A DNA stretch of 53,138 nt from Flavobacteriaceae bacterium (GTDB lineage Bacteria > Bacteroidota > Bacteroidia > Flavobacteriales > Flavobacteriaceae): the NCBI GenBank assembly GCA_024644725.1, contig JAHEHE010000008.1, positions 1 to 53,138 on the forward strand. Reading direction: 5' to 3'. A program made the translations under genes and the position numbers. The notes beneath the pieces were generated by a model. The model did no database searches. It was not told where the DNA came from and saw nothing but the letters and a program-made list of their open reading frames with translations. Positions 37,870-46,655 of the stretch are shown piece by piece. Within the stretch, counting starts at the first letter, position 1. Each line of letters begins with the position of its first letter.

Positions 37870-38244
37870 TTATTTCTTCAGAAAACTTCTTTTGCTTCCT
37901 CTTGTGGCCGCAGATCCGTGAATATTGCCACCTCCCCATTTGAGGCCTTGCTTTTGATTGCGAAAGCTGGGGTATTCTTGAATCTTTTTTTTGTAGGAAC
38001 CGGGTTTCTTTTCGGATGATTTCGCTTTTGAGCCCTTAATCTGATGATCTTGGATGATTTCATTCATTTTTTGTCGATATCTGTATCTTTCATAGAGGTA
38101 TAACGGCAGGCTAACTCCCAAAAGGAGAAACAAGCCCAGGGCAAGAAGCAAATTGTTGTAGGTAAGATCCAAAAACAGTCCGATGAATCTCAGGGTCAGA
38201 AATGTGATCCCCAGAATGAGCGAAAAATAAAATGAGACTTTCAT
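37870..38244 (-). CDS. Small membrane protein with basic tail, unknown
   Basis: A 124-residue protein with two membrane helices (about 5-24 and 30-50), then a very basic cytoplasmic tail rich in Lys, Gln and Gly (KKPGSYKKKIQEY, then WGGGNIHGSAATRGSKRS). The tail could bind nucleic acid or acidic membrane lipids, but this is a guess. I do not recognise a family. It is convergent with rlmH; between them lies only a short AT-rich inverted repeat. Confidence 0.6.
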   Translation of the reverse strand: MKVSFYFSLILGITFLTLRFIGLFLDLTYNNLLLALGLFLLLGVSLPLYLYERYRYRQKMNEIIQDHQIKGSKAKSSEKKPGSYKKKIQEYPSFRNQKQGLKWGGGNIHGSAATRGSKRSFLKK

Positions 38245-38318: not shown

Positions 38319-39338
38319 TCAGCCCCAAAAACCGGCAATGCGCTCGACCATCCAAAAAGCAGCCAGCGAACCGATGGCATAGGCGGGAACTTTCCTTAGA
38401 ACCGATGGCCAGTCTTTTTTCAAATTGATCAGGTAGATCACGACTAGCATGAAAATCACGAAAATGATCTGCCCCAATTCAACGCCAATGTTGAAGAATG
38501 CCAGGGCCAGTGGAATCTCCGTCTGCGGAAGCCCGATGTCAGCAAGCGCTCCTGCAAAGCCAAATCCATGCAAGAGCCCAAAAGTAAATGCCACGATCCA
38601 GGGCTTTTTGCTGGTCATCGTTTGTTTTCCTTCTATATTTTTCATGATCTCCGAGGCCAGGAAAACGATGCTCAATGCGATAACCGCTTCGACAGGTGGT
38701 CCTGGAAAGTTGACGATGCCCAGGGCCGCGAGACTCAGGGTGATGCTGTGAGCCAGGGTAAACGCCGTAATGGTCTTGAGAATTCTCCATTTGCCTTTGG
38801 TGATCATGATCAAAGCGAGAACAAAAAGCAGATGGTCAATGCCCAGCAGAATGTGCTCTATGCCTAAAATCGTGTAGGTCCTGATAACTTGCAAAGCGCT
38901 TGTTTCCCCCGGTATGATCCCGCGGTCGCGATCAGCTTGCAGCATCAGGGTGGTTTTCTCTCCATTTAGAAAAGACACGGAAACCAGCACATCGATAAGC
39001 GTTTTGTTCAAACCGTTGATGAAAAGCTCCTTGCCTCTTAGGCTTGTATCTGAACTGAGAAGGTATGTATAAATGGCCGCATCCGGAGTCTGTTTCGGGT
39101 CTTTGAGAACTTCCAAATTGAAACCATCCGGGAAAACGGGTTGTATCCGAGGAACGGCGTCTCCCATGCGTGGCACTTTCCAGTAGATCTCATACTTCAA
39201 GGGTGAGGTCTCCACAATTTGAAGATACGCCGGGCGTATTTCATGACTGCTTGCTGAAAAAGAGATCAAAAACAGACCGAAAACCATTAAGAAAGGTGAG
39301 AGAGTCTTGCTATAAAGTGACTTAGTCATTTGAGCCAT
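38319..39338 (-). CDS. HupE/UreJ-type membrane protein with extracytoplasmic N-terminal domain
   Basis: A 339-residue protein: signal-like segment (about 10-30), an extracytoplasmic beta-rich region starting HEIRPAYLQI (about 33-175), then six or seven membrane helices (about 180-339). The helices show the HupE/UreJ signatures HILLGIDHLLF, AHSITL, GLLHGFGFAGAL and FNIGVELGQ. HupE/UreJ proteins move nickel or cobalt; this two-part form is less well studied, so metal transport is inferred. It is the last gene of the DUF3604 operon and overlaps the parvulin gene by 17 bases. MTKS at 39329 is an alternative start. Confidence 0.85.
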   Translation of the reverse strand: MAQMTKSLYSKTLSPFLMVFGLFLISFSASSHEIRPAYLQIVETSPLKYEIYWKVPRMGDAVPRIQPVFPDGFNLEVLKDPKQTPDAAIYTYLLSSDTSLRGKELFINGLNKTLIDVLVSVSFLNGEKTTLMLQADRDRGIIPGETSALQVIRTYTILGIEHILLGIDHLLFVLALIMITKGKWRILKTITAFTLAHSITLSLAALGIVNFPGPPVEAVIALSIVFLASEIMKNIEGKQTMTSKKPWIVAFTFGLLHGFGFAGALADIGLPQTEIPLALAFFNIGVELGQIIFVIFMLVVIYLINLKKDWPSVLRKVPAYAIGSLAAFWMVERIAGFWG

Positions 39339-40206
39339 CCTTAGATTTTAAGTATTCGACAAATGCCTCATCAAATTTTTCAGGATCCAGGTCAAATTCA
39401 ATTTCGTAGCTGCGGCGAAGCTCGCTGTATACCTGATCATTTATCCTTCTCTGATTCTCATATTCGAAGTCTCGCTTGAGCTCGTTGACGATGCTCTCAA
39501 ACTCAGGTGCCCTGGTGGGTACTTTCTCAGTCAGATAAACTAGGTGCCAACCAAAGCCCGACCGAACCGGTCCTGTCCAAGTGTCAGTATCCAAACCTTC
39601 GAGGGACCGGGCAAAATCCATTCCCAATTGACGATCCAGCTCATGCCTGTCGGTCGATTCAAAATAATACGGAAAAGGCAGCTTGTCTCCCTGGTCTTTG
39701 AGCTTCTCGGGGCCTTTGTCATCAAGGGTTTCCAGATATTTTTTCGCATCAGCCTGTGGATTATTTCGAGAATCGGACCTGAAGCTTATCTGGTAAAAAG
39801 AATAAATCGGAGAAAGCAAATACTTTTCCCGGTTATTCTCGTAGTATTTCCTGAGTTCATCTTCCGTTGGCTCCTTCAGGGTGGCCAAATCATTGGAAAG
39901 GAAGTTCATTTTCTGGGCCAGTCGTCTCTTGATGATCTCATCGTTGTGATCGAGGTTCATCTTCAGGGCCTCCTGGTAAAACACCTCTTGGCGTATATTC
40001 TGTTGTACAAGGCTTTTGAGCTCCTCGTCGGTTGGGAGTCTTTTCCACTGCATCTCCCAGCTCGCAATGAGGTTGTTCATGTCATAATCATCAAAATAGA
40101 TCGTTTCCTGACTGTCTCTTCTATCGCTGACCCACCCGTACAGTACGAAAAGGGCGATACCGATGAGCACAAAGTGAAACAGGGGCTCTTTTAGAACATT
40201 TTTCAT
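39322..40206 (-). CDS. Membrane-anchored parvulin peptidyl-prolyl isomerase
   Basis: A 294-residue protein with one N-terminal membrane helix (about 10-27) and an extracytoplasmic part: a SurA-like helical region (about 40-125) and a parvulin rotamase domain (about 130-250; SFYQISFRS, GPVRSGFGWHLVYLTE). It should help fold exported proteins. Being fifth in the DUF3604 operon (59 bases after the third DUF3604 gene, overlapping the HupE/UreJ gene), it is probably a dedicated folding factor for the products of this operon. Confidence 0.9.
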   Translation of the reverse strand: MKNVLKEPLFHFVLIGIALFVLYGWVSDRRDSQETIYFDDYDMNNLIASWEMQWKRLPTDEELKSLVQQNIRQEVFYQEALKMNLDHNDEIIKRRLAQKMNFLSNDLATLKEPTEDELRKYYENNREKYLLSPIYSFYQISFRSDSRNNPQADAKKYLETLDDKGPEKLKDQGDKLPFPYYFESTDRHELDRQLGMDFARSLEGLDTDTWTGPVRSGFGWHLVYLTEKVPTRAPEFESIVNELKRDFEYENQRRINDQVYSELRRSYEIEFDLDPEKFDEAFVEYLKSKDGSND

Positions 40207-40265
40207 AGTTATCCAATTGAACTGATATCAAAAATACGTCAGTTGTCTCGATAAAAAAACTGTAT

Positions 40266-42128
40266 TCACTCCGGACTGTACCAAATGGGGCTCGACCAGG
40301 CGCGTTCCACGATAGATTTCGGAATGGCATCCGGGTATTTGACACCTTCGCGAATCTCATCGTAAAGTGTCCATCGGGCCGTTGGAAGTTGCAGCACCCT
40401 GGCATAATAAAAGGCCTTCTGAGAAGGGTCGAAATCCGGGTCCGTCCAAACGGTCATCAATTCAGAACTTCCTTTGGAGGAGTCAAAATCTCCTGTTTCC
40501 ATGTTGACCATCGCTTTCAGAGGTTCTACAGACCCATCCGACTGAATTTTCCTGTCATCAGAAACGGCTACATTGTAGATGGCTTCTTTCATTTCTCCAT
40601 TTTCCAACCACCCTTTGATGATCTGTATACGATCAAGTCCCGGCCCCATTGGGTCCTTAATGGCCCAAACTATGAATTGTGGCGATTTTCCGTTCACTTC
40701 AGGAAGGTCGCCTCCCATCGGAACTCCTTTTGAATAGCCCTCCTTTACGAATGATGTGCTAATGTAATTGCTTTCGAAGTCATAGCCACCGAATAATCGG
40801 ACCTTCATTCGAGGCCCGCTGGTTGCAAAAGTCTCCTTGTTCTTAATGGCGTCCCAAATGGATTCCCTTGTATTTGATTCTGCCCAGACACCTGTCAACG
40901 ACCCCGGATTGATGTCATAGGCCGTAGCCCACCCGTCGATCACCTGTGTCAACCTGTCTTCTGCTGTTTGATCAGCCAAACCGTGACTTCCTACTGTGTA
41001 ATTGTTCTCTTCTACGTTGCCCGGCGTGCCGTTGTGATTGTCTGACCCTCCCACGAACCCATATTTGAAGGGATTCACACCCAGATCCTCTTCGTACTTC
41101 AAGCCTCTTTCCAATCCGTACCGAACATAGTTTCTCTTTTCAAATTTTCGCCCGCTGTAGTCCTGAATAGAATAGGCCATTTCAAAATCGGCGAATTCAT
41201 CATTCGGCCAAAAGTCAGGATGCACTTCGGAATTGCCCTTGATCTGCATCATTTCGATAGCGGGTTCCATTTTTTGCCTGATCTCTGCATACTCTGCCGT
41301 TATCGGGTTCCCATCCATGTCAACTTCGGGAAACATCATTCCCTTGCTGCCATTTGAATTATGGGGTATGGCCAATAAGGTGCAGCCGTTCTCGATCTGT
41401 TGTCCCATCCACTCCCAAAGTTTTTGGGGATCTCTGCTGTCATTTGCGCTGAAAGGCATCCTCGGTACAAGGGTGTCTCGAAAAATCACATTCCTGTGTA
41501 GGTTTCCTGCATTTGGGGCAGCTGACCACTCAAAGGCGTGCAGCGTCGTGAATTTACCCGGTTCGTAATATTTCTCCGTGGCCTCAAAATTTTTACGCCA
41601 TCCCGACATGGTAGAAGTGTCACCCTGGTAAAAGGAGGGATGAACAGAACCTCCGGTTCTGGCAGGAGTTATGACGTACTTTACAAAGAGGGCCATGGCA
41701 TCTTCATAATTATTAGCCTCCCGCATTTGTTTGGCAATAGGATCATCGTACCCGGGTGTCCCGGGATTCATAAGCGTGTAAGTTTCTCCAAAATACTCCG
41801 CATGATCTGAAATAGCACAGAAGTCCAGGGGTCGTTTCAACTTATGCGCACTGCCGTTGGCCACTACTTCTTCCCCCCGAGCGAAGCGGTATGCATCTTC
41901 TGGGGTGAGTCGGTTTCCACCAATGAAAGCATCCATGGAGGTGCTTGTGTGAACATGGGTTTCTCCAAAAAAAGCATCTTTTAAGGGGTTAACTGGGATT
42001 ATAGATAAGGTCTCGGACTTATCTTCATCAGACCGTCTGCTCTCTTTTTCGAGTTGCTCCTTGCTTTTGGAACAAGAAATAGCTGCTAGAAAACTAACAG
42101 CTATTAAGCTAATTATTAAGTGCTTCAT
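40266..42128 (-). CDS. DUF3604 lipoprotein (divergent copy)
   Basis: A 620-residue lipoprotein (lipobox AAISC, Cys19). DUF3604 has a PHP-like metal-binding start: GETHVHTSTSMDA (His58, His60) and ISDHAEYF (Asp108, His109). Later conserved parts are IPHNSNGSKGMMFPE, GGSDNHNGTPGN, NTRESIWDAIKNKETFATSGP and the C-terminal SPIWYSPE. Compared with the other two copies it is clearly more distant (ADHSDGMG there, SDHAEYFG here; GSTDSHTSLATA there). Enzyme activity of the family is not settled; a metal-dependent hydrolase is inferred. It follows the regulator gene by 63 bases. Confidence 0.9.
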   Translation of the reverse strand: MKHLIISLIAVSFLAAISCSKSKEQLEKESRRSDEDKSETLSIIPVNPLKDAFFGETHVHTSTSMDAFIGGNRLTPEDAYRFARGEEVVANGSAHKLKRPLDFCAISDHAEYFGETYTLMNPGTPGYDDPIAKQMREANNYEDAMALFVKYVITPARTGGSVHPSFYQGDTSTMSGWRKNFEATEKYYEPGKFTTLHAFEWSAAPNAGNLHRNVIFRDTLVPRMPFSANDSRDPQKLWEWMGQQIENGCTLLAIPHNSNGSKGMMFPEVDMDGNPITAEYAEIRQKMEPAIEMMQIKGNSEVHPDFWPNDEFADFEMAYSIQDYSGRKFEKRNYVRYGLERGLKYEEDLGVNPFKYGFVGGSDNHNGTPGNVEENNYTVGSHGLADQTAEDRLTQVIDGWATAYDINPGSLTGVWAESNTRESIWDAIKNKETFATSGPRMKVRLFGGYDFESNYISTSFVKEGYSKGVPMGGDLPEVNGKSPQFIVWAIKDPMGPGLDRIQIIKGWLENGEMKEAIYNVAVSDDRKIQSDGSVEPLKAMVNMETGDFDSSKGSSELMTVWTDPDFDPSQKAFYYARVLQLPTARWTLYDEIREGVKYPDAIPKSIVERAWSSPIWYSPE

Positions 42129-42191
42129 TTCAGGGGGGAAAGAATTCTTTTACTCTTACACGAAAAGTAATCAATCGAGCCTTGAAAGAAG

Positions 42192-42791
42192 TTATCTTAT
42201 GTTAATTGCACCCATTTTTAACCGTTTCTTAATTCTGGACAGGGAAACAGGGGTAATACCTAGAAAATTTGCAACGTATTTGTCATAGGATTGTTCCAAA
42301 AAGGCCGGGTTCTTTTTCAGAAGATCCATATAGCGCTCTTCGCTACTCATAGTGATCATGCTTTGGACCCGGTAGGTCAATCTAAGAATAGCCTCCTTGA
42401 GGCTGTTTAAATAAATGGTCAAAATACTGTTGTTGGTCATGGCTAGATGCTCGAAGTCATCAAAAGAAAACATTAGAACCTCAGTGGGGCCCACAGCCAC
42501 AATCTCGAGCTCTTGTGGTTCGTCCAAAAAAACTGCAGGGGCATCACCCACGAAAATTCCTTTACCTCTAAGAAGAACCGTCTTTTCTTCGCCTTCAGCA
42601 TTCATCAGAAAACCACGTGCGACTCCAGCTAAAATTAGAAATACTTCCTTCTTGCGACTCCCTGATTTTAATATAACATCCTTGTCTTTAAAGAACCTTA
42701 AGGTGCAAATATTCACCACAAGATCCAGATCCTGTTTCGGAACATCTGGAAGCAGTTCTTTCAACTTTGAGATGAGGTTCTGATCGGACAT
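42192..42791 (-). CDS. Crp/Fnr family transcription regulator
   Basis: A 199-residue protein with a cyclic-nucleotide-binding-like beta-roll (about 25-120), a dimerisation helix and a C-terminal winged helix whose recognition helix is FLGITPVSLSRIKKRL (about 174-189). The only Cys is Cys28 in VVNICTLRFF, so there is no FNR-type iron-sulfur sensor. The effector is unknown. It lies inside the DUF3604 operon (33 bases after the second DUF3604 gene, 63 before the third) and probably controls it; a perfect FNR-like box lies before the first gene. Compared with E. coli FNR, the recognition helix keeps Ser-Arg but has Val at the Glu209 position. Confidence 0.92.
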   Translation of the reverse strand: MSDQNLISKLKELLPDVPKQDLDLVVNICTLRFFKDKDVILKSGSRKKEVFLILAGVARGFLMNAEGEEKTVLLRGKGIFVGDAPAVFLDEPQELEIVAVGPTEVLMFSFDDFEHLAMTNNSILTIYLNSLKEAILRLTYRVQSMITMSSEERYMDLLKKNPAFLEQSYDKYVANFLGITPVSLSRIKKRLKMGAINIR

Positions 42792-42824
42792 TAATCGCTG
42801 TTTTGTATTTTAATGGCATGAGTG

Positions 42825-44741
42825 TCACTCAGGATTATACCAAATCGGTGATGTATAGGCTCTTTCTGTAGTTGTCATTTCAGACTCTTTTGGCATCTGA
42901 ACACCAAATCGTTTGGCATCATAGGCGGTCCAACGTGGTGTTGGTATCTCGATCACCCGCGCATAATAGAAAGCTCTTTGTGCCGGGTCAAAATCCGGGT
43001 CCTTCCAGACCGTGATCAGTTCCGCACTTCCAATGGTATTTGCCCAGCTTGCATTTTTGACGTCAACTGTATTTCCTACATCGGGCACTTGACCATTTTT
43101 ACTCATCTTACGGCTCTTCATGTCGGACCAGACGACATTATACACTTTTTCATGTGTTTTTCCATCTGAGTCCAACCAGCCCTTGACGATTTGAATGCGA
43201 TCCAGGTTTCCAGAATAGGGGTCTTTAAGCGCGCCCACTAAAAACGTCGGGGCCTTGCCACTGGGTGCGTTATACAGGTCACCCCCCATGGGTACACCCT
43301 TCGAGTATCCAACTTCTGCAGGGAGTCTATTTTTTGCGTCACCTTCGTTGAATTCCCATCCACCCCAGAATCGAACCATGATTCTTGGACCTGTCGTGGC
43401 ATACACTTCTTTCCGAGCCATAGCGTCGAACAATGCCTCGCGGGTATTTTCAGTCGCCCAGACCGCAGCATAACCTGAGGCTACCAATTGCCAATCGAAA
43501 ATCTTTCTACCTTCAAATTCACCTACGATACCCGTAGAGCGTTCCGGGCTGGGTTCATTGCCCGAATGCTTCCCAAAAAAGTTCTCTTCCTCAGCAGTTG
43601 CCAAACTGGTGTGGGAATCTGTTGAACCAACAACACCGAATTTGTATGGGTTGGTGCCCAAAGTCTCTTCCATTTTCAACCCATTTTTCAAGGCTTCTCT
43701 TGCGTATTCGTATTGAAGCATGTCGTCTTCTTTTAACACACTGAGGTTGAGATTTCCAATATCCCAATTCTCATAATCACCAAATTCGTCGTTGGGTGAC
43801 AGAAAGGGGTGGGTTTCACCATCTCCCTTGATCTGTGTAATTTCATAGAGTGGCTCCCACTTGATTCGGTTTTTCGCATAGGCGCCATCCAAGGGCTTTC
43901 CAGTAGCCGGATTCACTTCAACCGGGAACATAATTCCATTGCTGAGATTCCCATTGTGGGCCAAGGCAAGAACATCTCCTCCTGTTTTCTCTTCATAGCG
44001 CTCCATCCATTTCCAAAGGTCCTCCGGGTTGAAACTCTCACTTGTTGTGTAGGGAAGCATGCGTTTCGCAATATTTCCGCCATCCCTGTACAATACATTT
44101 CTGTGTAAGTTGTTTCCGTTTTCGGTGGAAGTCCATTCGTAACCTATGATTGTAGTGAAAGTTCCTGGGTCATTGTATTCTTCAGCGATGTCAATATATC
44201 GATTCCAGATCGTCTGGCTAAAGTCCTCGTCCAACAAGATCTCGGGGATATCCCCAAGCGCAAAACTGTTGATCACGTCCATCGTGGCCATCAAGGCCGT
44301 TTTCCCACCTTGATTGACACGCTCGTTCCAGTCTTTTACGGTCGGGTCACGCATCAAATCCGGATTTCCCTTGATGATCTCGTTCATGGCACCCATACCA
44401 TCAGAATGGTCAGCTACCACAAGCCAGTCAAGTGGCCTTGAAAGTTTCACTTTCTCACCGTGAGTGGCGGTAATCTCTTCTCCACGGGCCAGTCTATAAG
44501 CTTCTTCGGGCCCAAGTGTTGTGCCAAATGCCCTAGCGTCCAGGGAGTTGCTCGTATGCAGGTGTGTGTCACCCCAATAAACCTGCGTTGGAAAGTTCCT
44601 GCCTGCATAAGGAGAATAGCCTCTTTTTTTGTGAATGGTCTCTCCTTTTTTCATGTCCATGGTCATTTCGCCCACCTGTTGAGCAAAACCACTGAACTGA
44701 AACACAAATGCAATTGATAAGAAGAATGAGAATTTTTTCAT
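42825..44741 (-). CDS. DUF3604 exported protein (middle copy)
   Basis: A 638-residue protein with a normal signal peptide (cleavage after FSGFA, near residue 20) instead of a lipobox, so it is probably free in the periplasm or secreted. PHP-like motifs: GDTHLHTSNSLDA (His60, His62) and VADHSDGMG (Asp111, His112). Other conserved blocks: YEWTSTENGNNLHRNV, LAHNGNLSNGIMFP, GSTDSHTSLATAEEENFFGK, NTREALFDAMARKEVYATTGP and SPIWYNPE at the C-terminus. It is much closer to the first copy (44784-46655) than to the third, suggesting a local duplication. It follows the first copy by 42 bases. Confidence 0.9.
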   Translation of the reverse strand: MKKFSFFLSIAFVFQFSGFAQQVGEMTMDMKKGETIHKKRGYSPYAGRNFPTQVYWGDTHLHTSNSLDARAFGTTLGPEEAYRLARGEEITATHGEKVKLSRPLDWLVVADHSDGMGAMNEIIKGNPDLMRDPTVKDWNERVNQGGKTALMATMDVINSFALGDIPEILLDEDFSQTIWNRYIDIAEEYNDPGTFTTIIGYEWTSTENGNNLHRNVLYRDGGNIAKRMLPYTTSESFNPEDLWKWMERYEEKTGGDVLALAHNGNLSNGIMFPVEVNPATGKPLDGAYAKNRIKWEPLYEITQIKGDGETHPFLSPNDEFGDYENWDIGNLNLSVLKEDDMLQYEYAREALKNGLKMEETLGTNPYKFGVVGSTDSHTSLATAEEENFFGKHSGNEPSPERSTGIVGEFEGRKIFDWQLVASGYAAVWATENTREALFDAMARKEVYATTGPRIMVRFWGGWEFNEGDAKNRLPAEVGYSKGVPMGGDLYNAPSGKAPTFLVGALKDPYSGNLDRIQIVKGWLDSDGKTHEKVYNVVWSDMKSRKMSKNGQVPDVGNTVDVKNASWANTIGSAELITVWKDPDFDPAQRAFYYARVIEIPTPRWTAYDAKRFGVQMPKESEMTTTERAYTSPIWYNPE

Positions 44742-44783
44742 CTGATTCGGTTATTGAATGTTATTGCCTTTTGATCTTTATCG

Positions 44784-46655
44784 TTAATTCGGGCTGTACC
44801 AGATAGGAGAGGTGTAAGCTCTTTCCGTGTTGAAAAGAGGAATCTCATCTGAAATCTCGGCGTCGTATTGAAGTTTGTCGTAGAGCGTCCACCTTGGGGT
44901 GGGAATTTCGATAACCCTTACATAATAAAAGGCTTCAAGTTTCGGATCAAACTCAGGATCCGTCCAAACAGCTTTCAGTTCAGCAGATCCGATAGAATTG
45001 TCCCAGGTTCCGTCTTCCACATTCACGCTGTTTCCAACATCAGGAACCTTACCATCAGTTCCAGGGGTTCTTTCGCCGCTCCAGGCCACGTCAAATACCT
45101 TTTCAGCCGTTGTGCCATCCGGTTGCAGCCATCCTTTGACGATTTGAATCCGATCCAGGCTTCCACCATTAGGATCCATCAGAGCATAAACCATAAAGGT
45201 GGGCCTTTTATCTGTTCCCTTGTTCAAATCTCCTCCCATAGGCACGCCTTTTGCATATCCCTGAGCCACGTAATCTCCGTCGAGATCCGTGTCATTATAA
45301 TCCCAGCCTCCGAAAAATCGCACTGTCATTCTCGATCCGGTGGTTCCATAGGTTTCTTTTCGCTTCATGCCGTCCCATATCGAGGTGCGCGTATTCTCAT
45401 GCGCCCATACAGCTGCATAACCTGAGGCCAGCGTCTCCCAGGTGTAAATGGTTGCTTTCTCCGATGCCACGAAAGGATGCTCCCATCTTTCCTTGCTCGG
45501 TTCTACATTCGAAGCCTTTCCAAAAAAGTTGTTGTCGTCGGCCGTAGCGAGGGAAGTGTGTGAATCCGTGCTTCCGATCATTCCAAACTTATACGGGTTG
45601 GTTCCTAATTGACTCTTGTATTTTAAACCAATTTTGAGCGCGGAACGCGCATATTCATACTGCAGCATGTCGTCTGTTTTTACGGCACTCAAGTCGAGGT
45701 TCCCCTTGTCCCAGTTCTCGTAATCGGCAAATTCGTCATTGGGAGAAAGAAAGGGATGCGTCTCGCCGTCTCCCTTGATCTGCGTAACTTCATATAGGGG
45801 CTCCCACATGATACGTCGATCTACATAGGCCTTGTCGAAGGCCCGCCCATCAACCGTGGTCTCGGCAAACATCATACCGTTGCTCAGGTTTCCGTTGTGC
45901 GGAATGGCCAGCACCTTGCCGCCTGTATTCTTCTCATAGCTCTCCAGGTTGTCCCAAAGTCTTTCGGGGTCAGAGCTGTCTTCATTGGTGAAAGGCAGCT
46001 GATTGATGGCCTTGTCTCCATTGTCTCTGTATATGACCACACGGTGGAGATTGTTTCCTTTGATGAGGGAGGTCCATTCATAACCGATAAAAGCTGTGAA
46101 TTTACCGGGGTCATTGTATTTTTCGGCTGCGTCTACCACGTTTTTCCAAACCGGGGTCATCATGCTCACGTCATTGGTCTTAAAAGGGAATTCACCCTGG
46201 GAGAACTTCTTGATGATATCCACGGCGGCCTCACCACCTTTCCCTTCATCGATCATTTTTTTCCAGGCTTTTGACTCCTCGTATTTCATGACATGCTCCT
46301 TTTCATCCATCAAGTCGGGAAAGAAGCCCATGCCATCGGAGTGATCGGCTACTACAAGGAAGTCCAGGGGCTGCTGGAGTTTGGTCTTGATGCCCGTGGT
46401 CGATGTAATCTCATCACCTCTCGCAAATTGATAAGCCTCATCCATGCCTAGCCGGTTCCCGAAGGCTCCCGCATCCATGGAAAGGGACGTGTGCAAATGA
46501 GTGTCACCAAAATAAACTTGAGTCGGATAACCTGTTGAACTTGCATCCGCTTGTTCCTGAGATCTCGAGGATTCACTTGTTGAAGTTTCTGATTTTTTGT
46601 CTCCGGAACAGGACAGCATGAGTAATGCAAAAAATAGGGGGATCAGGCTTTTCAT
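44784..46655 (-). CDS. DUF3604 lipoprotein (first gene of the operon)
   Basis: A 623-residue lipoprotein (lipobox LMLSC, Cys16) followed by a Ser/Glu-rich tether. PHP-like metal motifs: GDTHLHTSLSMDA (His53, His55) and VADHSDGMG (Asp104, His105). Further conserved blocks are GYEWTSLIKGNNLHR, IPHNGNLSNGMMF, GSTDSHTSLATADDNNFFGK and SPIWYSPN. It is first in a six-gene run on the - strand: this gene, a second DUF3604, a Crp/Fnr regulator, a third DUF3604, parvulin and HupE/UreJ, with gaps of 42, 33, 63 and 59 bases and one overlap. A candidate activator-dependent promoter lies just upstream. Confidence 0.9.
   Translation of the reverse strand: MKSLIPLFFALLMLSCSGDKKSETSTSESSRSQEQADASSTGYPTQVYFGDTHLHTSLSMDAGAFGNRLGMDEAYQFARGDEITSTTGIKTKLQQPLDFLVVADHSDGMGFFPDLMDEKEHVMKYEESKAWKKMIDEGKGGEAAVDIIKKFSQGEFPFKTNDVSMMTPVWKNVVDAAEKYNDPGKFTAFIGYEWTSLIKGNNLHRVVIYRDNGDKAINQLPFTNEDSSDPERLWDNLESYEKNTGGKVLAIPHNGNLSNGMMFAETTVDGRAFDKAYVDRRIMWEPLYEVTQIKGDGETHPFLSPNDEFADYENWDKGNLDLSAVKTDDMLQYEYARSALKIGLKYKSQLGTNPYKFGMIGSTDSHTSLATADDNNFFGKASNVEPSKERWEHPFVASEKATIYTWETLASGYAAVWAHENTRTSIWDGMKRKETYGTTGSRMTVRFFGGWDYNDTDLDGDYVAQGYAKGVPMGGDLNKGTDKRPTFMVYALMDPNGGSLDRIQIVKGWLQPDGTTAEKVFDVAWSGERTPGTDGKVPDVGNSVNVEDGTWDNSIGSAELKAVWTDPEFDPKLEAFYYVRVIEIPTPRWTLYDKLQYDAEISDEIPLFNTERAYTSPIWYSPN

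Follow-up and report, generated by a model that had tools for sequence, protein, structure and literature searches.

A conserved gene trio of DUF3604, a membrane-anchored parvulin and a HupE/UreJ-2 permease as a candidate folding and metal-loading module for exported PHP-type hydrolases

The locus described here raises the question of whether adjacent genes for exported DUF3604 proteins, a parvulin and a HupE/UreJ-type membrane protein make up one functional unit, and which of the genes belong to it. The window, that is the whole stretch of 53,138 nucleotides that was analysed, belongs, as contig 110, to a draft genome of 2.83 Mb from a Flavobacteriaceae bacterium (contig JAHEHE010000008.1), and between positions 38319 and 46655 it carries six open reading frames (ORFs), all on the minus strand, which are separated by gaps of 42, 33, 63 and 59 bases and in one case overlap by 17 bases. 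This is exactly, to the base, the arrangement given in the original prediction made from the DNA letters. The gene families named there were likewise recovered with Pfam (three DUF3604 proteins, Rotamase_2, HupE_UreJ_2 and cNMP_binding), and its two DUF3604 lipoproteins and one DUF3604 protein with a plain signal peptide agree with the N-termini; signal peptides, lipoboxes, the HupE cleavage site and the N-terminal helix of the parvulin were all assigned by eye. No minus-strand terminator-like site was found in the four gaps, where the promoter scan covered sigma-70 types only, and a divergent HAM1-type gene lies upstream of the run. We find that the conserved core is made up of three genes, encoding DUF3604, a parvulin with a membrane anchor and a HupE/UreJ-2 permease that carries an additional exported domain (the trio), and we give about even chances to the locus being a maturation-and-use cassette, in which a dedicated folding and metal-loading module serves exported PHP hydrolases.

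Conserved co-occurrence of the three families had been set beforehand as the test of a common function, and was analysed by whole-genome searches with DUF3604, HupE_UreJ_2 and a parvulin profile in 296 Bacteroidota, 349 Pseudomonadota and 111 Verrucomicrobiota genomes. The association is strong in Pseudomonadota, where any DUF3604 match occurs in 27 of the 349 genomes and a full-length one (E below 1e-190) in 22, the matches being only weak and partial in G606 and G493. A HupE gene lies within 6 kb of DUF3604 in 22 of the 27 genomes with any match and in 20 of the 22 with a full-length one, and the remaining two of these 22 carry the parvulin-HupE pair elsewhere. The parvulin subtype (E at or below 1e-25) was detected in 24 genomes, comprising all 22 with full-length DUF3604 versus two of the 327 others (Fisher 7e-33, for genomes that are not independent); the survey centre G062 had been selected for carrying the trio, and without it the former count is 21/21. 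As to the two remaining parvulin genomes, G711 has no DUF3604 and G525 (L228) has only the last stretch of a DUF3604 gene beside an intact parvulin-HupE pair. Among the Bacteroidota, HupE_UreJ_2 is found in 87/296 genomes and DUF3604 in just three, that of the window included, and in all three HupE is located 1.3 to 1.4 kb downstream of DUF3604 with the parvulin in between. A chance operon is thus ruled out by the surveys of these two phyla.

The Verrucomicrobiota survey yielded a DUF3604 match in 10/111 genomes, of which one is full-length (G063, a survey centre chosen for the trio) and nine are weak and partial, and the parvulin in G063 plus a partial match in G746, which is too few for a count. 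Two genomes without parvulin, G792 and G821, hold nine and seven weak DUF3604-like PHP stretches, apparently of another PHP family. A separate observation concerns G394 (L229:9037-10038, minus strand), in which a DUF3604 lipoprotein, present with its N-terminal part, continues in a single frame as the C-terminal part of a HupE; this points to a deletion relic, as if an internal deletion had taken the rest of the trio, and implies the same gene order before the loss. The trio is also present at single loci of metagenome-assembled genomes (MAGs) from other lineages, the lineages being as labelled, and on four annotated plasmids, from Rhizobium lentis, Rhodobacter sp., Sinorhizobium medicae and Ensifer sp., which were examined out of 80 records with a DUF3604 match (the Sinorhizobium medicae listing had already named the isomerase). 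On all four the order is DUF3604, peptidylprolyl isomerase and HupE/UreJ, and the neighbours otherwise differ as far as the incomplete table of annotated genes goes; the trio is therefore plasmid-borne and looks self-contained.

What could the three components do? The DUF3604 proteins of the window match PF12228 with 734 to 823 bits, against a gathering threshold of 20.4, from profile position 2 or 3 to 591 of 591. Protein a (positions 44784..46655, minus strand, 623 aa, E 8.2e-243) has the lipobox LMLSC, and its PHP motifs are complete and invariant in alignment A1; protein b (42825..44741, minus, 638 aa, E 2e-247), whose structure was modelled, has a plain signal peptide ending in GFAQQ; and protein c (40266..42128, minus, 620 aa, E 1.5e-220), with the lipobox AAISC, is the most divergent paralogue, being 39% identical to protein b as compared with 55% for protein a. 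In an alignment of 46 DUF3604 proteins, residues H60, H62, D68, D111, H112, E202, H213, H262, D375 and H377 are invariant in 46/46. They include the HxH motif I (codons H60-L61-H62 of protein b, 44556..44564, minus) and the DH motif II (codons D111-H112, 44406..44411, minus). PHP proteins bind their metals through HxH, DH, E, H and DxH motifs, a ligand set that the invariant residues match.

The AlphaFold2 model of protein b (pLDDT 90.0, pTM 0.89) finds as its best matches in the Protein Data Bank (PDB) both chains of the two-domain PHP protein 3E38 (E 1e-6 and 2e-6, probability 1.00). These are the sole fold matches at E≤0.001, with unrelated beta folds coming next, and 3O0F, which we take to be the next PHP protein in the list, appears at E 0.012. 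By sequence, DUF3604 has no solved relative in the PDB at E 10 or better. Since the TM-scores of the 3E38 matches are low (0.27/0.47), the model supports membership of the PHP superfamily and no finer placement. The metal site claimed in the original prediction thus holds at the level of motifs and agrees with the predicted fold, there with modest scores. A CehA/McbA metallohydrolase assignment (NF038032) was discarded, with 14.1 bits for protein c only versus a cut-off of 80 bits. Taken together, DUF3604 is predicted to be a Sec-exported PHP-type metallohydrolase with a multinuclear metal site. It would most likely cleave an ester, and a phosphodiester is our first guess, because 3E38 belongs to the network of Sb-PDE and No-PDE, two PHP enzymes with phosphodiesterase activity (PMC5460133, PMC11656708; here and below, cited papers are represented by parts of their text).

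The permease of the window (38319..39338, minus, 339 aa) matches HupE_UreJ_2 (PF13795) with E 1.3e-47 and 161.8 bits, against a gathering threshold of 24.5. Its model (pLDDT 86.3) evidences strands from residue 37 to 141 followed by helices, in agreement with a beta-rich exported N-terminal domain of around 116 residues ahead of the membrane part. This domain would start with His-Glu after cleavage between SASS and HEIRPAY, so that His32 (codon at 39243..39245, minus) is the predicted mature residue 1, and the corresponding column has His in 37 of 47 trio-type HupE proteins. Within the membrane part H162, D168, H169, H197 and H257 are invariant in 20/20 proteins, and so is the H-x5-D-H motif. 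The nearest solved fold of the ectodomain is the zinc-binding ZrgA (8F1B; E 2.2e-3, probability 1.00), and a sequence comparison with PDB chains gave no credible match. Such His1 domains are known from the anglerases described in 2025, HupE/UreJ-2 proteins that bind copper and, in the case of Ang-1, also nickel (PMC12537917). The Ang-1 structure RbAng-1a (9GCE) is absent from the best 50 fold matches of the ectodomain, its presence in the searched structure sets being unconfirmed, and two long parvulin-less HupE proteins, examined as possible Ang-1 markers, likewise had no credible PDB match. We call the ectodomain anglerase-like and not Ang-1, because it is shorter and has no credible match to a PDB sequence. 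The nickel or cobalt that the original prediction had assigned to HupE is hence one option only, as related ectodomains bind copper and nickel (PMC12537917) or zinc (8F1B).

These residues also bear on a reading in which HupE/UreJ-2 moves a hydrolysis product or an oxyanion and not a metal, the locus serving to take up what DUF3604 releases. Hydrolase-transporter pairs are indeed common; against such a role stand the invariant metal-type His and Asp residues, the mostly His mature N-terminus and the ZrgA-like ectodomain, and we regard it as very improbable.

The third component (39322..40206, minus, 294 aa) is a parvulin-type protein (Rotamase_2, PF13145, E 9.9e-17; 62.3 bits against a gathering threshold of 27) with one N-terminal membrane helix, which is preceded by a conserved juxtamembrane EPLxHF motif. 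The parvulin profile matches the structures of HP0175, Cj0596 and SurA. The catalytic site of parvulins is a dual histidine, the second of which is kept in 22/22 sequences; the column of the first has Gln in 19/22, and Val, Ile and His in one each. A role as prolyl isomerase is doubtful because of this Gln, and judging from the sequences a chaperone function is more likely than a strong isomerase activity.

Gene content and order, near-exclusive co-occurrence, conserved metal-type motifs and predicted folds are the observations on which a mechanism can be built. Given their Sec-type signals, the window's DUF3604 proteins are expected to reach their folded, metal-bound state outside the cytoplasm. 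As the working enzymes of the system they would be exported via Sec, some of them lipidated and others behind a plain signal peptide, and the parvulin, anchored in the inner membrane, would receive the emerging chain and serve chiefly as its holdase or foldase. Two sites of the HupE/UreJ-2 permease, the exported His1 domain and the membrane H-x5-D-H site, would bind a transition metal, which the permease would supply to the DUF3604 client on the outer side of the inner membrane. A loading-and-folding role is suggested by the fact that a foldase and a metal permease are tied to exported DUF3604, and has a precedent in the TerC proteins of Bacillus. Our account of how metal is physically passed on, in which direction it moves, which metal is involved and what is cleaved is inferred. 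A more specific form of the proposal, in which the altered parvulin holds DUF3604 at the inner membrane and a coupled His1-domain HupE delivers metal outward as a portable metallate-and-fold cassette, is put forward tentatively, with the odds somewhat against it. Were it to hold, the trio would load metal in the periplasm for a single enzyme family, to which it would be dedicated, and would have spread between phyla and onto plasmids; HupE/UreJ-2 proteins would then gain a delivery role in place of uptake.

The closest relationship inside the trio is that of the parvulin with HupE, which was analysed in 84 fetched HupE loci, namely the best matches of each search with 1.5 kb flanks, beyond which a parvulin would be missed. 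The 16 loci that score at least 270 bits with a profile of trio HupE are all parvulin-adjacent, as against 0/68 of the loci at or below 179 bits; eight of the 16 had been used in the profile and eight are new. The parvulin-HupE pair is a special subtype. In a larger set of 86 loci (85 plus the window stretch), counted after removal of the duplicates L032, L033, L034 and L050, DUF3604 and an adjacent pair occur together in 39, with 39 distinct parvulins. The genes lie on one strand in 35 of these, follow the order DUF3604-parvulin-HupE in 33, and in 33 the parvulin and HupE overlap or are at most 5 bases apart. Pairwise distances of parvulin and HupE are correlated with r=0.80, as compared with 0.41 and 0.34 for those of DUF3604 with the two partners, and the maxima of 500 permutations each were 0.18, 0.16 and 0.21. 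Full-length DUF3604 genes number one in 23 of the 39 loci, two in nine, three in six and four in one. Runs of N are found in the DUF3604 stretches of L044, L045, L065 and L066.

The weak point of the mechanism is the direction of transport: either this HupE subtype exports metal, or its ectodomain hands metal over directly, or the trio scavenges metal. In the last case DUF3604 would cleave a metal-chelating organic ester in the periplasm and HupE would import the freed metal, so that the enzyme serves the permease; the parvulin would fold either of them. This agrees with HupE relatives being described as nickel importers and with anglerases being proposed to fish metal for uptake (PMC12537917, PMC4771312), as well as with the parvulin-HupE pair being the tightest of the three and standing alone in G711. 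Each pair, however, comes with between one and four full-length DUF3604 genes, which fits many clients of one helper better, and no riboswitch or other Rfam element that would name the metal reached the gathering threshold, either in the window or in seven of the trio loci, other metal-regulon signals having been outside the search. We consider metal scavenging unlikely on balance, with perhaps one chance in four.

Several observations weigh against a folding and metal-loading module. At the genome level, the parvulin-HupE pair lies away from DUF3604 in G625 and G664, a trio-type pair is found in G711 (L269:9952-11762), a genome that lacks any DUF3604 match, and in G485 a diverged DUF3604-like frame is accompanied by neither parvulin nor HupE. 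At the level of the locus, 7 of the 39 trio loci depart in strand or order, L036 has DUF3604 between the parvulin and HupE, and the distances of DUF3604 track those of the pair less well. As to the proteins, His1 is replaced by Asp in 10 of the 47 trio-type HupE, the fold search with the ectodomain gave no PDB match at E 0.001 or better, and the first catalytic His of the parvulin is mostly lost. HupE relatives are described as bringing nickel into the cytoplasm (PMC12537917, PMC4771312), which is the wrong side for a periplasmic client, and the metal binding and activity of DUF3604 are themselves predictions from motifs and a model.

Further leads come from the neighbouring genes, which were counted in 24 genomes, comprising the 22 Pseudomonadota with full-length DUF3604 and two Bacteroidota; G063 to G066 had been picked with their neighbours known and were excluded. 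Within 6 kb of DUF3604 a sulfatase is found in at least 4/24 genomes (G062, G433, G490 and G537; expected 0.54) and a DUF1254 protein in 5/24 (G062, G470, G580, G637 and G694; expected 0.21). Because both families were chosen after they had been seen beside other loci, G062 among those, these figures are exploratory and the enrichment is a lead to the substrate. Proteins of the formylglycine-generating-enzyme type and outer membrane proteins of the phenol-pathway type each recur in three loci.

Such neighbours are compatible with a different scenario, in which HupE is the protein that the parvulin folds, and the two together import metal and are linked to DUF3604 only as fellow passengers in a catabolic island of sulfatases and DUF1254 proteins. 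The overlap and coevolution of the parvulin-HupE pair speak for it, together with the neighbour counts, which carry the exploratory status just mentioned. The four trio plasmids, in contrast, lack annotated neighbours of this kind, within their incomplete gene table, and the near-total limitation of the parvulin to DUF3604 genomes would not be expected; we thus judge the scenario improbable. Sulfatases cluster with DUF3604 at L064 and L231, L070, L037 and L062 (Bacteroidota and a MAG from the Verrucomicrobiota survey), and some of these loci also have proteins of the formylglycine-generating-enzyme and outer membrane types. Besides these, a family linked by BLAST lies 0 to 170 bases from DUF3604 at L062:13726-14784, L206:12401-13441 and L212:11856-12842 and is possibly a further partner; Pfam recognises nothing in its L206 member, and at the starts of those from L062 and L206 the signal peptide is followed by two Cys.

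Two genes at the locus remain outside the trio. The Crp-like protein (42192..42791, minus, 199 aa; cNMP_binding, PF00027, E 9.5e-11) had been taken for the system's own regulator, a claim that is not sustained, as its gene lies inside the cluster in just 4/8 readable loci of the genus (the window, G003, G008 and G014) and is absent in G004, G009, G011 and G013, other partial contigs of the genus having been excluded. Besides these, a BLAST-linked Crp-like gene occurs among the 86 loci only in L070 and L227, at 7.1 and 4.0 kb from DUF3604. These counts rule it out as a core member, and it is a lineage-specific addition outside the conserved unit. The second is a small predicted membrane protein of 124 aa (37870..38244, minus), which starts 74 bases downstream of HupE and has no Pfam match over the cut-off. 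As its relatives adjoin HupE in five other loci, the local run may count seven genes in this genus.

How, then, does the trio compare with known systems? No description of it was found in the open-access literature, among the matches listed, and for DUF3604 no functional paper was found there, the one mention, in the text available, being in a table of Chlamydia transposon mutants. The HupE nickel permeases of hydrogenase and urease clusters resemble the HupE of the window through a distant match to the HupE_UreJ family of Pfam (E 3.2e-7), but they are not known to carry an exported domain, and their users are cytoplasmic nickel enzymes. Among hydrolases, Sb-PDE and No-PDE share with DUF3604 the PHP superfamily and the relative 3E38, which is the sole solved member of their network (PMC5460133, PMC11656708), and a trinuclear zinc site has been reported (PMC11656708). 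They differ in size, the Sb-PDE subunit being of around 49 kDa as compared with about 620-640 residues in DUF3604, and neither a parvulin nor a HupE is mentioned for them in the text available.

Anglerases are nearer to the trio permease, as they have in common the PF13795 membrane domain and a His1 exported domain, and 8F1B is the nearest fold of both Ang-1 and the trio HupE (PMC12537917). Indeed, the membrane metal site modelled for Ang-2 has His spacings of 7 and 28, which are those of H162, H169 and H197 of the trio HupE (PMC12537917). The anglerase exported domain is longer, with around 176 residues versus around 116, and position 1 is Asp in 10/47 trio-type proteins. The trio HupE is moreover set in a DUF3604-parvulin context, and the main text of PMC12537917 contains none of the terms 'DUF3604', 'PpiC' and 'peptidyl'.

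The closest functional parallel is found in Bacillus subtilis, in which Sec-exported enzymes receive their manganese from the TerC proteins MeeF and MeeY, and these copurify with a parvulin, PrsA (PMC10550928). A polytopic metal transporter, a parvulin-type foldase and exported enzymes fill the same three roles there, whereas the transporter family is unrelated (TerC, PF03741), several enzymes are served instead of one family, the host is Gram-positive, and an arrangement of the genes in one cassette is not reported in the text available. How enzymes exported unfolded acquire their metal is described as an open question, to which TerC in Bacillus is one answer (PMC10550928). A cassette that ties a metal permease and a folding factor almost exclusively to one exported enzyme family would open this question to tests in Rhizobium, Sinorhizobium and other hosts with good genetics, and DUF3604 would gain a function. 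In respect to these systems, the trio is real and conserved, and we see in it a dedicated variant of a principle familiar from other metalloenzymes, that of accessory factors, and not a new kind of chemistry.

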